Part shown: positions 9,197-20,834 of the stretch, piece after piece
Position numbering within the stretch: position 1 is the first letter of the stretch
Layout of the letters: every line of letters begins with the position of its first letter
DNA from: Pseudomonadota bacterium
GTDB taxonomy: Bacteria > Pseudomonadota > Alphaproteobacteria > Caulobacterales > Caulobacteraceae
NCBI GenBank assembly: GCA_019348195.1
Contig: JAHWJX010000020.1
Coordinates: forward strand, 1-36,187
Direction of reading: 5' to 3'
Length of the DNA: 36,187 nt
Notes under the pieces: model-generated
The model's database searches: none
The model's input: only the letters and a program-made list of their open reading frames with translations
What the model was told of the DNA's origin: nothing
Made by a program: the position numbers and the translations under genes

Positions 9197-10573
9197 TCAT
9201 TCCGCGCGCGGAAGGACGATCTCCACCTTCAATCCACCCAGAGCGGCTGAGTCGAGCCGGACGTCGCCCCCGTAGGCGCGCGCAAGCTCATCGACGATCG
9301 ACAGTCCCAATCCGGAACCGGGCGCCGACTCGTCCAGCCGGGCGCCTCTCTGCATCACCTCCGCGCGGCGTTCCGGCGGGAGCCCCGGGCCGTCGTCCTC
9401 GATGGTCACGCGAAGCCGCTCGGGATGGTCGCCGACCACCGACGCCCGCGCGCGCACTCTGCGGCGGCACCATTTGCAAGCGTTCTCCAGGACATTGCCG
9501 ACCACCTCCAGCAGGTCCTGGCGCTCGCCCAGGAAGGCGAGGTCGTCGGGCGCGTCCCAATCGATCTCCACACCCTTGTCCTGATGAATGCGCTCCAGCG
9601 CGAGAACGAGCTCCTCCAGGATGGGCGCGACCTCGGTGCGCTCTCCCTGCCCCTGGGCCCGCGCGGCCGCTCGCGCCCGCCGAAGGTGGTGATCGACATG
9701 GTCGCGCATGGCGTTGGCCTGGCGGTGGATCACGTCCGCCAAATCCCCTGGATGGGCGCCGGCTTCAGTCAGCATGACGGAGATGGGCGTCTTCAGCGCG
9801 TGGGCGAGGTTGCCGACGTGAGTGCGTTGCCGCTCCACCACCTCCTGGTTGTGGTCCAGCAGCGCGTTCAGCTCCCCGGTGAGGGGAGCCAGCTCTTCCG
9901 GATAGGTTCCTGTGAGACGTTGCGCCTTGCCCCGTCGCACCCGAGCGATCTCGCGCCGGATGTCGAACACCGGTCGCAGCCCGAACCTGACCTGTACGAA
10001 GACGGCGACCACCAGCCCGCCCCCGAGCAGCAACAAGGCTATGGCGGTGGTGAGCGCGAAGCGAAGCGCGTCGGCGTCGAGCGGCGCGCGATCCTCGGCG
10101 GCCACGAACAGGATGGGCGCCGCGCGTCCGGGAAGCCGGGACAGCAAGGCGGCCGCCCGAAGCCGCTCCTCCGCCGGGCCGCGAAGATCGAAAAACAGCG
10201 TGCCGCCTGGATCGGCCTGAGCCTGCCGGATCACCGGCTGGGGAAGGACGAGTTCCGCGTCCCAGAGGGACCTGGACCGTGCAAGCGTGGTCGCGGTTCC
10301 GTTGGGGGCGACCTCCGCGATTTGATAGTAGCGCCCCGAATAGGCGCGCTGATGCCCTGCGTCGCCCAGCACCGCCGGCAGCAGGGCGCCGTCGGGATCG
10401 ATGTTGGTGCCCGCCAGCAGGGCGGTCACGGTCTCATCCAGGCCGCGATCGAACTGGCGCAGCGTGGCTTGTTGAAAGAAGGCGCTGAGCGCCACGCCGG
10501 TGAGCAGCAGGGCGGCGAGGATCCATCCGGCGGCCAGCCAGACCAGTCGCCGAACCAGCGAGCCCGGCCTCAT
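9197..10573 (-). CDS. Two-component sensor histidine kinase, PhoQ/QseC-like layout
   Basis: This encodes a 458-residue inner-membrane sensor kinase. A first membrane helix (about residues 10-32) is followed by a periplasmic domain of about 135 residues, a second helix (about 172-194) and a HAMP linker. The DHp domain carries AHALKTP with phosphoacceptor His258. The ATP-binding domain has the N box (NVLENACKW, Asn364), G1 (DDGPGLP, about 393-399) and G2 (GSGLGLS, about 419-425), so it looks fully active. Its start overlaps the response-regulator stop by four bases (ATGA), so the two are co-translated. The signal is unknown. Candidates in this operon type include cations, antimicrobial peptides and metals; the nearby copper cluster makes copper possible but nothing in the sensor domain shows it. 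Confidence 0.93.
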   Translation of the reverse strand: MRPGSLVRRLVWLAAGWILAALLLTGVALSAFFQQATLRQFDRGLDETVTALLAGTNIDPDGALLPAVLGDAGHQRAYSGRYYQIAEVAPNGTATTLARSRSLWDAELVLPQPVIRQAQADPGGTLFFDLRGPAEERLRAAALLSRLPGRAAPILFVAAEDRAPLDADALRFALTTAIALLLLGGGLVVAVFVQVRFGLRPVFDIRREIARVRRGKAQRLTGTYPEELAPLTGELNALLDHNQEVVERQRTHVGNLAHALKTPISVMLTEAGAHPGDLADVIHRQANAMRDHVDHHLRRARAAARAQGQGERTEVAPILEELVLALERIHQDKGVEIDWDAPDDLAFLGERQDLLEVVGNVLENACKWCRRRVRARASVVGDHPERLRVTIEDDGPGLPPERRAEVMQRGARLDESAPGSGLGLSIVDELARAYGGDVRLDSAALGGLKVEIVLPRAE

Positions 10574-11253
10574 GCCCCGGCGCCGGCCTCGTCCTCCAGG
10601 CAGACCAGACGATACCCCAGGCCGCGCACCGTCTCGATGCGGTCAGCGCCGATCTTCTTGCGGACACGACCCACGAACACTTCGATCGTGTTGCTGTCGC
10701 GGTCGAAGTCCTGATCGTACAGGTGTTCGACCAACTCCGTTCGGCTGATCACACGGCCCTGCTGCATCATCAGATAGTGGAGCAGCCGGTACTCCAGCGA
10801 GGTCAGCCGCAAGGGCTCGCCGTTGACGGAGGCCCTTGCAGACCGCGGATCCAGACGCAGGCCGCCGCAGGTCAGCGTTGGCGAGGCCTGACCCGCCGCC
10901 CGGCGCAAGAGCGCGCGCAGGCGCGCCAGCAGTTCCTCGGTGTGGAAGGGCTTGGTCAGGTAGTCGTCCGCGCCGGCGTCGAACCCCGCGACCTTCTCGC
11001 TCCAGGCGCCCCGGGCGGTGAGGATCAGGACCGGCGTGGTGCGTCCATCGCGGCGCCAACGCTCCAGAACGCTGACGCCGTCCACCTTGGGCAGCCCAAG
11101 GTCCAGAATGACGGCGTCGTACGGCTCCGTCTCCCCCAGGAACTGCGCTTCTTCGCCGTCGGGCGCGTGATCCACGGCGTAGCCGGCGTCGTCGAGCGAC
11201 GCTTTCAGCTGGCGCGACAGATCCGGATCGTCCTCGACCAGCAAAACGCGCAT
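10570..11253 (-). CDS. OmpR/PhoB family response regulator
   Basis: This encodes 227 residues: a receiver domain (about 1-115) and a winged-helix DNA-binding domain (about 130-220). The acidic pocket is Asp8/Asp9, the phosphorylated residue is Asp51 (VILDLGLP), and the conserved Thr and Lys lie in LILTARG and LTKPF. The output domain ends with NTIEVFVGRVRKKIGADRI and VRGLGYRL, typical of the OmpR family. The gene directly follows the PepSY gene (its ATG abuts the preceding TAG) and overlaps the kinase start, giving a tight three-gene operon. The direct repeat at 11629-11650 upstream of the operon has the spacing expected for binding by this family, so autoregulation is likely but inferred. 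Confidence 0.95.
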   Translation of the reverse strand: MRVLLVEDDPDLSRQLKASLDDAGYAVDHAPDGEEAQFLGETEPYDAVILDLGLPKVDGVSVLERWRRDGRTTPVLILTARGAWSEKVAGFDAGADDYLTKPFHTEELLARLRALLRRAAGQASPTLTCGGLRLDPRSARASVNGEPLRLTSLEYRLLHYLMMQQGRVISRTELVEHLYDQDFDRDSNTIEVFVGRVRKKIGADRIETVRGLGYRLVCLEDEAGAGA

Positions 11254-16708: not shown

Positions 16709-17455
16709 ATGCGCGCACTGCTCACCTTGTTCGCCCTGTTTGCGGCCTCGCCCGCCTTGGCCGATCCGTCGGGCAGGCTCTATGAGCGCGCTCTCATGGC
16801 CGAGGCGGACCGCCGCTGCGGCCTGTTCACGCCCGAGATCCGCAGGGCCCTGGCTGTGGGGCGCATCCAGGCGCGCAATGCAACGCTGAGGGCCCGAGGC
16901 GACGCCGTCCGTGTGGAGCATCGCGCGCGAGAACGCGTGGCCGCCTTGGCCTGCACCTCCCCGGACCTGAGGGTCGCGGCGGGCCGGGTGCGGGAGGGAC
17001 ATGCGGGTTGGGCCCAACTCTACCGCATGGACTTCCCGGCCGCCACGTCCGGATGGCGCGCCGACCGCACACGTTCCGCCGAGACCCGCTGGAGGGTGGT
17101 CCAGACCACGCCCAAGGCGGCCCTGGGGCTGGCCGGGGCGGACGCGGGGCAGGCGGCCCTCTACGCCGTGGCCCGGTTTCGCAAGGCTGAGACCCCGGCC
17201 TCCGCGCGGCTGAGGGTGGGGCGCCGGACCTTCCTGGCCGCCTCGCGGGAGACGGCCCCAGTTGTGCTGAGCTCTGCAGGCAAGGGCCGAGCGTGGGCGT
17301 TCCGCTTTCCGCCCGCCGCCGTACAGGCGTTGGCGGCGGCCTCCACCCGGGACACGGCCGAGCTCAGCTTCATCCGGGCGGGGCGAGGCCAGACCCGCTC
17401 CGTGCCGATCGAGATCGGCGACTACGCCGCGGCCCAGGCCTTTATCGGGCGCTAG
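16709..17455 (+). CDS. Secreted hypothetical protein
   Basis: This encodes 248 residues with a clear signal peptide (MRALLTLFALFAASPALA), so it is exported to the periplasm. I recognise no family. After the signal, RLYERALMAEADRRCGLFTP and a second Cys in VAALACTSPDLRVAAGRVRE are about 50 residues apart and could pair, and the C-terminal half looks beta-rich (SARLRVGRRTFLAASRET, TAELSFIRAGRGQTRSVPIE). The stop overlaps the stop of the convergent DivJ-like kinase within a CTAG at 17452-17455. The start is supported by the signal peptide. Confidence 0.75.
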   Translation: MRALLTLFALFAASPALADPSGRLYERALMAEADRRCGLFTPEIRRALAVGRIQARNATLRARGDAVRVEHRARERVAALACTSPDLRVAAGRVREGHAGWAQLYRMDFPAATSGWRADRTRSAETRWRVVQTTPKAALGLAGADAGQAALYAVARFRKAETPASARLRVGRRTFLAASRETAPVVLSSAGKGRAWAFRFPPAAVQALAAASTRDTAELSFIRAGRGQTRSVPIEIGDYAAAQAFIGR

Positions 17456-18960
17456 CGGCCCGTGAAGGGGATCACCTGCGCGCCCCCAGCCGCGCTCCCG
17501 CCGGCGCTTCCCTCATCCTCGGTGAACAGGTCCGCTTCCGGCGCCAGCACGGGCAGACGCACCGTGACCGCAGTGCCCTCACCCAAGGTGCTTTCCAGGC
17601 TCATGGTCCCCTCATGCAAGCCGGCGAAAGCCCGCACCAGGCTGAGTCCCAGGCCGGCGCCGAGAGCGCGGGTGTCGGCGTCTCCCGCCTGTTCATAGGG
17701 CCGCCCCAGACGCTCCAGATCCTCCGGAGCGATGCCGATGCCGGTGTCGGAGACGACCAGTTCCAGGCAACCCTCCACCTCGTCCAAGGTGATCCGCACT
17801 TCGCCGCCCGCCGGAGTGAATTTCAGCGCATTGCCGAGCAGGTTGAGCGCGATCTGCTTGAGGGCCCGCTTGTCGGCCTCCACCGCCAGGCTTCGCTCCG
17901 GCGTCCGAGTCACAAGATCCACGCCGGCCTCCCTGGCCTGGGTCCGCATGAGCTTGACCACGGACTCGATCGCCTCGCGGGCATCGAAGCGCTCCCGCTC
18001 CAGCCGGTAGCGCTCCGCCTCGATCTTGGACAGGTCGAGCACATCGTTGATCAGGTCCAGCAGGTGCGCCCCGCTCTCGTGGATCAACTGGGAATATTCG
18101 GCGTAGCGCTCCGGCAGGGGGCCGAACAAGCGGTTACGCATGATGTCGGCGAAGCCCATCACCGCGTTCAGGGGCGTTCGCAGCTCATGGCTCATGGTGG
18201 CCAGGAACCGCGACTTGGCCAGATTGGCCGCTTCGGCCTGCGCCCGCGCAGCCTCCGCAGTTTCGAGCGCAGTGTTCAGAGACCCGATCTCGTCTCGCAG
18301 CCCATCGGTTTCGCTCCGGAGCGCCACCAGCTCCTCGCGGCGGCTATCCTCGCCCTGGCGCCGAAGCATCTCGGCATCGGCCCGGGACGCCTCCAATTCG
18401 AGTGCAAGCGCCCGAGCCCGCTCCGCTTCGCGTTGATCCACCACGGTCAGGGGCGTCGCTTGTTCGGAGCGCAGCCGACCGGCGCTGACCAGGGCCCAGA
18501 TGACGGTCGCCACAGCCGCCAAGGCCGTCATGCCCCCGGCAAGGCCGCCTGGAATGCTCCCCGCGACCGATGAGGCGTCGGCTGCAGCCGCAACAAAGGC
18601 CACAAGCGACGCACAGGCGGCGCGCTCCACCCATCCTCGACCCAGCACCGCCCCCACGGCCACGGGCAGCAAGGTCCAGACCGCGCCAGGTCCGGTGATC
18701 CCGCCCAGCGCGCCGGCCGCAAACAAGGCGGCCCCTGTCCAGACCGCCATCAGGATGCGGTCGTGGCCATGCAGCAGCCAGCCCAGCACCCCCGCCCCGG
18801 CCAGGACCGCGAAACTGGCCAGCACGCCGGTCGTAGGCTGTCCTGCCGCCAGAACCACAACGCCCACCGCCGCAACACAAACCAGCGCCCAGGACGCATG
18901 CCATCGCGCGACCGCCGGGTCCGCCTCGTCCGCCGTCATGCTCGGGAGAAAACTCACCAT
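17452..18960 (-). CDS. divJ: DivJ-like membrane sensor histidine kinase
   Basis: This is a 502-residue kinase with about six hydrophobic segments in residues 22-160, no periplasmic domain of note, a coiled-coil stretch (about 175-250) and a kinase core. The DHp domain has MSHELRTPLNAVMGF with His258 and continues RLFGPLPERYAEYSQLIHES, very like DivJ and PleC of Caulobacter. The ATP-binding domain has Asn377 (NLLGNALKFTP), DTGIGI (about 405-410) and GAGLGLS (about 434-440), so it looks active. In Caulobacter DivJ phosphorylates DivK and PleD and controls polar development. The membrane-only sensor region fits DivJ better than PleC, which has a periplasmic part and PAS domains. An in-frame ATG seven codons in (18939) is an alternative start. 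It diverges from a DHp-only gene. Confidence 0.72.
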   Translation of the reverse strand: MVSFLPSMTADEADPAVARWHASWALVCVAAVGVVVLAAGQPTTGVLASFAVLAGAGVLGWLLHGHDRILMAVWTGAALFAAGALGGITGPGAVWTLLPVAVGAVLGRGWVERAACASLVAFVAAAADASSVAGSIPGGLAGGMTALAAVATVIWALVSAGRLRSEQATPLTVVDQREAERARALALELEASRADAEMLRRQGEDSRREELVALRSETDGLRDEIGSLNTALETAEAARAQAEAANLAKSRFLATMSHELRTPLNAVMGFADIMRNRLFGPLPERYAEYSQLIHESGAHLLDLINDVLDLSKIEAERYRLERERFDAREAIESVVKLMRTQAREAGVDLVTRTPERSLAVEADKRALKQIALNLLGNALKFTPAGGEVRITLDEVEGCLELVVSDTGIGIAPEDLERLGRPYEQAGDADTRALGAGLGLSLVRAFAGLHEGTMSLESTLGEGTAVTVRLPVLAPEADLFTEDEGSAGGSAAGGAQVIPFTGR

Positions 18961-19106
18961 CGCCTTCTAGGACCTGCGTTAACCTCACGCGAGCCGGCTC
19001 CCGCCACAGGCGAGACGCCGCCCCCGCGAGGGCGCGACAGCTGCGGCCGAGAACGGTTCGGTAAGCCTGGGGGCCTACCCTCCAGTCTCGCCTCCGAGTT
19101 CGTCCG

Positions 19107-19373
19107 ATGTCGGCTTCCCCCGAGCCCGATCCGCTGCATACCGCCGATCGGCGCGCCTTTCTGAAGGCGGTCAGCCACGAACTGCGCACGCCGCTCAACG
19201 CCATCATCGGCTTCTCCGAGCTGATGAGCCACGAGCTGAACGGCCCCCTGCCCGAGGGCTACCGCGGCTACGCCGACATCATCAGCGAGAACGGCCGCCA
19301 CCTGCTGCAGCTGGTGGACGACTTCTTCGAGACCGCCATGGCCAAGGCCGCCGAAGAGGCTGCAGCGGCCTGA
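19107..19373 (+). CDS. Stand-alone histidine-kinase DHp (HisKA) domain protein
   Basis: This encodes only 88 residues, nearly all of them a HisKA dimerisation/phosphoacceptor domain: FLKAVSHELRTPLNAIIGFS with His24, then LNGPLPEGYRGYADIISENG and HLLQLVDDFFE, ending in an Ala/Glu-rich tail. No ATP-binding domain follows; the stop at 19371 comes before sufE. By hand alignment 31 of 58 residues match the DHp domain of the divergent DivJ-like kinase, and the HELRTP box is intact. It could dimerise with or compete with that kinase, accept or pass phosphate, or bind DivK/PleD-type receivers; these are inferences. It might instead be a truncated kinase, but the frame is clean and ends naturally. The ribosome site is weak. 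SufE starts 39 bases downstream, so the two may share a transcript. Confidence 0.82.
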   Translation: MSASPEPDPLHTADRRAFLKAVSHELRTPLNAIIGFSELMSHELNGPLPEGYRGYADIISENGRHLLQLVDDFFETAMAKAAEEAAAA

Positions 19374-19412
19374 GCGTTGCCCAGGAGCTTCGGCTCCCCT
19401 ACCTGCGCCCTC

Positions 19413-19862
19413 ATGACCGCCGCCGTCCTGGAGCAAGCTCCCTCGCCGCCCGAAGCCGCGCTGGCCGAACTCGCCGAGGAGTTCGAACTGTTGGGCGACT
19501 GGGAGGAGCGATACCGCCATGTCATCGACCTCGGCCGCGAGCTGCAGCCGCTCTCGCCTGTAGAACGCACGGACGCCAACAAGGTGCGCGGCTGCGCAAG
19601 CCAGGTGTGGCTGGTCACGGAACCCCAGCAAAATCGCCTGCAGTTCCGCGGCGACAGCGACGCCCACATCGTTCGCGGGCTGATCGCCATCCTGCTGCGC
19701 CTGTACTCCGGCCGCAGCCCCGACCAGATCCTCAACTTCGACGCCAAGGCGGCCTTGGCGGGGCTCGGCCTGTCGGGAGCCCTGTCCACCCAGCGCTCGA
19801 ACGGCCTCAACGCCATGCTGACCCGCATACGCGCTGACGCGGAGCGGCTCGCGGAGAATTGA
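19413..19862 (+). CDS. sufE: SufE family sulfur acceptor protein
   Basis: SufE accepts persulfide sulfur from the cysteine desulfurase SufS and passes it to the SufBCD scaffold for iron-sulfur cluster assembly in the cytoplasm. The 149-residue product has the family layout: ELAEEFELLGDWEERYRHVI, GRELQPLSP, and the catalytic-loop motif VRGCASQVWL with Cys61. The C-terminal LRLYSGRSPDQILNFDAKAA and GLSGALSTQRSNGLNAM are also typical. The ATG at 19413 is preferred to a TTG 12 codons upstream. No other suf gene is in the window. Confidence 0.95.
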   Translation: MTAAVLEQAPSPPEAALAELAEEFELLGDWEERYRHVIDLGRELQPLSPVERTDANKVRGCASQVWLVTEPQQNRLQFRGDSDAHIVRGLIAILLRLYSGRSPDQILNFDAKAALAGLGLSGALSTQRSNGLNAMLTRIRADAERLAEN

Positions 19863-20182: not shown

Positions 20183-20707
20183 TCAGGACGGACGGATGCC
20201 CGAACGCTGCTGCGCCGTGTTGTTCAAACCGACCAGGCCGTCATAGCCGAGGATCATGTCGACCTCGCGCCCGTTGGAGGCCAGGGGCAGCCGCAGCCAG
20301 ACCACTGAAAGGTGTCCCAGGCCGCGCCAGCTCAGCGAATGTACTCCCGCGCCTGGCTTGCGGCCCGACACCACCTTGTCCAGTTCGGCTCGCCAGTAGG
20401 GAGCGCTGGCCCCATAGGCCTGCTCCAGGGTCTTGCCCGTGATCTCCTGGCCATAGACTCCGTACAGGCCCGTGCCGGCCAGGCGCACGCGGTAGTCCAC
20501 CCGCCCCTCCGCGTCGCGCATCACATCGATCAGATTGATGGCGGGCAGGTGCCGCTTCATGTCCACAGGGTGGATATGCCGCCGTGCCGGCAGGTGCCCG
20601 CGGCGGCGGCGGCGCGAGGCCCAGTAGGCGAACAGCTCCTCATGCGCCCGCACCGCAAAGGTGGGCGTGGCCGTGTTCTCGGTGAAGCCCCCGTTTTGCG
20701 GCTGCAT
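20183..20707 (-). CDS. PAS_5-type PAS domain protein
   Basis: This encodes 174 residues consisting mainly of one PAS domain of the PAS_5 type, common in alphaproteobacteria. Features are AYWASRRRRRGHLPARRHIH, then MKRHLPAINLIDVMRD, VDYRVRLAGTGLYGVYGQEI and TGKTLEQAYG, matching the family's pattern of 'W-x-x-R-R-x-x-x-x-P-x-R' followed by 'R-x-x-G-T'. No output domain follows, so it may act as a stand-alone sensor or partner. The ATG at 20707 is preferred; an upstream in-frame start at 20773 adds 22 mostly basic residues. The role is unknown. Confidence 0.78.
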   Translation of the reverse strand: MQPQNGGFTENTATPTFAVRAHEELFAYWASRRRRRGHLPARRHIHPVDMKRHLPAINLIDVMRDAEGRVDYRVRLAGTGLYGVYGQEITGKTLEQAYGASAPYWRAELDKVVSGRKPGAGVHSLSWRGLGHLSVVWLRLPLASNGREVDMILGYDGLVGLNNTAQQRSGIRPS

Positions 20708-20834
20708 GTCCGCCTTCCCCCGCAAACCTTGATTTGCGTGGCGAGTTTTGCGCGAGAGCGCGGTGCTTCGCAAGCAGCGATTCGCGCGACAGGGAGGGTC
20801 GGTTCGGCGCCTGGAGGGTGAGCCAGGGGCGCAA

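Follow-up and report, generated by a model that had tools for sequence, protein, structure and literature searches.

The window analysed here is a 36,187-nucleotide stretch (contig JAHWJX010000020.1) of a 2.55-Mb, ~94% complete genome of the family Caulobacteraceae (GCA_019348195.1, hereafter G000), for which a sister genome of the same genus (G001) is available. It contains a short gene encoding a histidine kinase dimerisation and phosphoacceptor (DHp) domain, located between divJ and sufE. The features of the locus are as follows.

17452..18960, minus strand: DivJ orthologue of 502 residues with HisKA and HATPase_c domains, divergently transcribed (Pfam; best NCBIfam model NF050805 DivJ, below its cut-off; synteny)
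18961..19106, no strand assigned: intergenic region separating divJ from the divergently oriented short gene (sequence)
19107..19373, plus strand: DHp-only gene encoding 88 residues, most likely the orthologue of the cckN-slot gene without its catalytic/ATP-binding (CA) domain (open reading frame with HisKA match; identical-length frame in the sister genome; AlphaFold hairpin)
19176..19220, plus strand: codons His24 to Glu38, the HELRTPLN..IIGFSE block with phosphoacceptor His24, the adjacent Glu25 and Thr28 at H+4 (alignment)
19341..19373, plus strand: end of helix 2 and alanine-rich tail; full kinases continue into the CA domain here, and approximately 150 codons are missing
19413..19862, plus strand: sufE (Fe-S metabolism), the conserved downstream neighbour, with the start taken as the ATG at 19413 (an in-frame TTG lies at 19377; Pfam SufE; survey anchor)
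20183..20773, minus strand: PAS_5-domain gene, a frequent neighbour beyond sufE (Pfam; synteny)

The ATG of the short gene is the sole start codon (ATG, GTG and TTG considered) in a 102-codon open frame, and the encoded protein matched the Pfam HisKA profile (PF00512) over residues 15-78 (profile positions 2-62 of 66) with 62.4 bits against a cut-off of 26.9. This was the only Pfam match, with HATPase_c absent at E 0.001, and H24 lies inside HELRTP with T28 at H+4, in agreement with the sequence-only reading of a complete HisKA domain lacking an ATP-binding domain. Taking a histidine kinase as DHp plus CA, the protein falls outside the class, as the CA domain is missing C-terminal to the DHp. 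AlphaFold modelled two helices (residues 9-41 and 50-87; mean pLDDT 86.4, pTM 0.70), and the top Foldseek matches in the PDB were DHp domains (ERS1, GacS and RetS), the best at E 0.017 and none at 0.001. The gene has a high third-position G+C (0.90) and is the only one of the 34 HisKA matches in this genome to sit in a short frame (102 codons; the next is 364). A promoter/terminator scan and an Rfam search of the locus found no sigma-70-type site, terminator or Rfam match. The independently assembled sister genome carries the same frame, 97% identical and with the same start and stop, so the short frame is no assembly slip; an assembly frameshift hiding a CA domain is disfavoured by the agreement of the two assemblies and by the 39 bp that separate the stop from the sufE ATG.

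The left neighbour had been described as a DivJ-like kinase, a description upheld by both synteny and its best NCBIfam model (NF050805, 372 bits over residues 232-473). The score lies below the model cut-off of 1000, as does that of its Caulobacter counterpart (970 bits); in the window (17452-18960) the model matched over the catalytic core alone, the N-terminal sensor half having diverged. Most of the 40 stretches from relatives in a first comparison share, completely or partially, the arrangement RF3, small gene, DUF1491, unknown gene, DivJ (minus), slot (plus), SufE (plus) and PAS_5 (minus). A 248-residue protein without a Pfam match, convergent with divJ (4-bp end overlap), is encoded at 16709-17455 and recurs at many related loci. 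Elsewhere in the window, a kinase and a response regulator, forming a pair of their own, occupy 9197-11253 on the minus strand (HATPase_c at 9203-9523, receiver at 10918-11247).

To establish what the slot between divJ and sufE holds across the family, 129 genomes were drawn, of which the 125 with a SufE match were classified (G028, G070, G084 and G133 lacked one; for G011 and G088, with two matches each, one was used). A full DHp plus CA kinase was found at 63 of these loci, no kinase at 57, a DHp-only gene at two and a locus cut at a contig end at three. The full slot kinases are soluble and span 15 genera, including Caulobacter (16 of 16 loci) and Asticcacaulis (17 of 18), while both DHp-only loci belong to the window's genus, from which two genomes were sampled. 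From DHp start to stop the short protein measures 74 residues, compared with a median of 226 (223-244) in the 63 full kinases. Divergent pairing with the kinase, which the sequence-only reading had raised as a point to check, extends to 57 of the 63 full loci, the other six having no DivJ in the stretch examined. The lack of an ATPase domain, raised alongside it, is not conserved across the Caulobacteraceae surveyed: all 63 slot homologues outside the genus have a CA domain and both genomes of the genus are without one, which indicates that the domain was lost.

The class without a slot kinase refers to the sufE slot; in seven such genomes a full copy lies at another place, and the same holds for G104 (cut) and G070. 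By our own count from a profile search, at least 72 of the 129 genomes have a full copy somewhere among the matches listed, G068 being counted as such by its short frame although it scores under a PleC. In the same place-independent search no full CckN was found among the matches listed for G000 or G001, and a second full copy in the genus was rejected, as the best listed matches of both genomes are PleC-like 629-codon frames. Across 200 genomes of the order, the window's gene was alone among the matches listed in having a frame below 250 codons, in a sample without G001 and with a model that included the short form and so inflated its score. In g20 (L070 in G020 and L054 in G032) the divJ-cckN pair is kept and the sufE slot appears empty because sufE sits on a different contig. 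At L069 (G017), which has a very divergent DivJ, no slot kinase was recognised in the ~1.17 kb that separate the DivJ frame from the SufE match. A DHp-SufE fusion was also considered, since the two frames are in phase, and was disfavoured: the intervening stop is kept in G001, and in the 63 full copies the stop precedes the SufE match by a median of 49 bp (range -25 to 193).

The short gene occupies the CckN position, between divergent divJ and sufE and on the strand of sufE. We infer that the slot gene is CckN (CC_1062) from gene position rather than from comparison with the C. crescentus sequence itself, CC_1063, beside CC_1062 in that species, being presumably divJ. CC_1062 is the C. crescentus orphan kinase CckN, listed as a predicted PdhS kinase in the accessible portions of two reports (PMC3090404, PMC7003649). 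In a DHp tree of 73 rows (up to three per genus and class) the short form grouped with the slot kinases with support of 100/98, and again with 99/96 when PleC was added (47 rows, one per genus and class; L016 without a row). The sequence-only reading had proposed descent from the adjacent DivJ-like kinase on the basis of 31 identities; the identities were recovered (47% over residues 15-80, about 31, over a somewhat longer alignment), but that origin is probably wrong, and a free copy of DivJ's DHp is disfavoured by synteny and by the best trees, in which the short form is not nested with DivJ DHps. AU tests on the 74 DHp columns are not decisive, rejecting neither a grouping with DivJ (p 0.09) nor one with PleC (p 0.16), so that chromosomal position carries much of the argument. 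From the conserved divJ-sufE slot together with the DHp grouping, the short gene is most likely a CckN orthologue that has lost its entire CA domain, and for that missing domain we file it as CckN-derived and not as a CckN kinase. It shares with CckN, a soluble PdhS-type kinase/phosphatase, the slot by divJ and sufE, a probably CckN-type DHp with His and Thr intact and a genome encoding the presumed targets. It differs in lacking the whole CA domain and in having drifted at several conserved DHp columns: of 32 columns conserved among full CckNs it retains 24, compared with 26 of 31 or better in the full copies listed, although none is lost between His24 and Glu38.

The short form most simply predates the split of the two species, and the differences between G000 and G001 would then have arisen in the short gene. 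There are three synonymous and three nonsynonymous changes, which leaves dN/dS of the gene taken alone uninformative. Under neutrality, the synonymous rate in 10 flanking genes (190/2357 sites) predicts 16.0 nonsynonymous changes (P of three or fewer, 9e-5) and the intergenic rate (78/1243) 12.5 (P 0.0015). Weaker yardsticks gave 9.7 (intergenic rate minus the first stretch, P 0.013), 9.2 (the gene's own synonymous rate, P 0.018) and 7.7 (the two adjacent gaps, P 0.053). Purifying selection on the short gene is therefore likely rather than proven, given these weaker values and a single species pair with three changes.

A decaying remnant, functionless after loss of the CA domain and heading to the empty slot of many relatives, would be consistent with the 57 of 125 loci that lack a slot kinase, which suggest that cckN is dispensable in many lineages, as well as with the drift at conserved DHp columns (24 of 32 kept) and with the P of just 0.053 from the adjacent gaps. 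Set against it are a start, stop and length identical in two species, three nonsynonymous changes where 16 or 12.5 were expected, the intact His24-Glu38 block and the high third-position G+C, and we consider decay unlikely, though a serious contender. The simple truncation named as an alternative by the sequence-only reading is thus correct in so far as a CA domain is carried by all 63 slot homologues outside the genus, but the occurrence of the short form in both genomes and the probable purifying selection make a dead gene less likely; the short gene is probably not mere decay.

Signs of change at the ATP site extend to the full slot kinases. The His, Glu and Thr of the DHp are invariant in 63 of 63, while the Asp of the G1 box is replaced by Asn in 21 of 63, comprising all 17 Asticcacaulis copies (g15; L047, L052, L171, L180, L188, L195, L202, L207, L212, L216, L221, L226, L231, L236, L245, L250 and L255), both g4 copies, G097 and G116. 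A further slot kinase (G012) has lost N-box and G2 residues, bringing the damaged ATP sites to 22 of 63. DivJ at the same locus served as a control and has the G1 Asp in 91 of 92 sequences, the remaining one being a gap (91 of 91 readable). A tree obtained by a quick method requires four Asp/Asn changes, three of them forced by well-supported branches. Mean column entropy in the CA domain is 1.81 bits for slot kinases versus 1.17 for DivJ, and in the DHp 0.76 versus 0.60; in the alignments, the DHp is the part of the slot kinases that selection holds most evenly. Asticcacaulis and the few other G1-Asn slot kinases resemble the short protein in combining a compromised ATP site with a kept DHp, and differ from it in that their CA domain is present. 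Separately, an HATPase_c match broken by one TGA occurs in both genomes of the window's genus (G000:C76:14389-14709 and G001:C1:848922-849242) and is possibly a degraded or split kinase.

The presumed targets are encoded in both genomes. The DivK gene of G000 (1.4e-61 to 1m5t) adjoins that of PleD (679 bits to 9g85), the same pair of receiver frames is present in G001, and flagellin matches were found in both. The available text of a review describes CckN and PleC as phosphatases that hold down DivK~P and PleD~P during G1 and are cleared by ClpXP (PMC8973945). In a two-hybrid screen CC_1062 reportedly bound DivK (PMC3090404); a later coupling model describes a less clear signal for this pair, as far as its available text goes (PMC3963956). 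The DHp domains of EnvZ and NtrB were reported to suffice for phosphatase activity, which the CA domain greatly boosts, and DHp expression in vivo to yield a constitutive phosphatase phenotype (PMC3510030, in part).

Our best explanation, which we hold tentatively at somewhat under an even chance, is that the locus is cckN after CA loss and that its DHp remnant dephosphorylates DivK~P and PleD~P constitutively and independently of ATP. Loss of the CA domain (~150 codons) at the cckN locus of the genus would have left a soluble DHp hairpin, two of which are expected to assemble into a four-helix bundle. Such a dimer would still bind DivK~P and PleD~P and would speed their dephosphorylation by way of Thr28 and its neighbours, opposing DivJ as a constitutive phosphatase with autophosphorylation and nucleotide control gone. 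The activity could be weak, because the CA domain greatly raises that of DHp domains in the available account (PMC3510030). The alanine-rich end of the short protein would fit a ClpXP-type tail and offers a lead; 33 of the 63 full CckN copies end in Ala. A Caulobacterales survey, in its accessible part, places cckN among the regulators absent from lineages without flagella and holdfast (PMC12700997); in contrast to those lineages, the window's genus keeps flagellin genes and a cckN remnant. The expectation that a DHp-only protein beside a divJ orthologue is unusual, and likely tied to DivK and PleD, is in line with these observations.

Other roles for a selected DHp would leave catalysis aside or use His24 differently. 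As a decoy or mixed-dimer regulator, the free DHp would pair with the DHp helices of DivJ or PleC, or sequester DivK and PleD, damping kinase output. The DHp-type interface is kept in the alignment and the AlphaFold model, and a structure of an isolated GacS DHp bound to the RetS kinase region has been solved (7n0e, by entry title); however, this role by itself leaves the intact His24 and Thr28 unexplained, and at 47% identity between the short-form DHp and that of DivJ we regard it as improbable. A phosphotransfer step or phosphate buffer, in which the phosphoryl group of DivK~P or PleD~P returns to His24 and is kept there or handed on in the manner of a minimal ChpT or Spo0B, would account for the intact His24 and its box in genomes with DivK and PleD genes. 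It appears quite improbable, as the short protein has no match to HPTransfase (the ChpT family, PF10090) in Pfam at E 0.001, G001 has a separate ChpT gene (found there and not in the ~94% complete G000) and no extra receiver gene adjoins the locus. Split kinases are known elsewhere, as in Rv0600c/Rv0601c of M. tuberculosis, and a separate CA-only protein might phosphorylate His24 in trans. The 47 HATPase_c matches in G000 and 49 in G001 include no full-length one in a short frame in both genomes; the sole full match in a frame below 290 codons in G000 (196 codons, C125, possibly cut at a contig end) has no G001 counterpart, and a split kinase is hardly credible here.

Among known systems, ChpT and Spo0B-type histidine phosphotransferases likewise have a DHp-like hairpin with no kinase role; they retain a degenerate CA-like domain, of which the short protein has none. 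The DHp-only EnvZ and NtrB proteins share with it an isolated HisKA DHp, reported for those constructs as phosphatase-sufficient in the accessible text (PMC3510030), but are laboratory constructs acting on other response regulators, whereas the short gene is natural and its phosphatase activity putative. The literature searched for natural DHp-only or stand-alone DHp proteins yielded nothing relevant, which does not imply absence from print. What is new is that a histidine kinase family already known has, in nature, given rise to a protein of DHp alone. In one genus related to Caulobacter it appears to be a CckN remnant under probable selection, which suggests that it may switch off targets without acting as a kinase.

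Taken across the family, repeated loss of the ATP site with the DHp held, and complete loss of the CA domain in this genus, could reflect a CckN lineage turning from kinase into kinase-independent phosphatase and giving rise to a natural, free-standing DHp phosphatase that serves the DivK/PleD cell-fate switch without ATP, a broader reading that we advance as possible and with more reserve. Bifunctional histidine kinases are usually discussed as requiring the ATP-binding domain for their kinase/phosphatase balance. If the phosphatase reading is true, a natural, selected DHp-only CckN would mean that a cell-fate phosphatase can dispense with that domain, and would help to explain the existence of CckN beside DivJ and PleC. 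It predicts that Asticcacaulis CckN, with its G1 Asn, has little or no kinase activity and keeps phosphatase activity, and the 88-residue protein, being compact, would lend itself to structural studies together with DivK.
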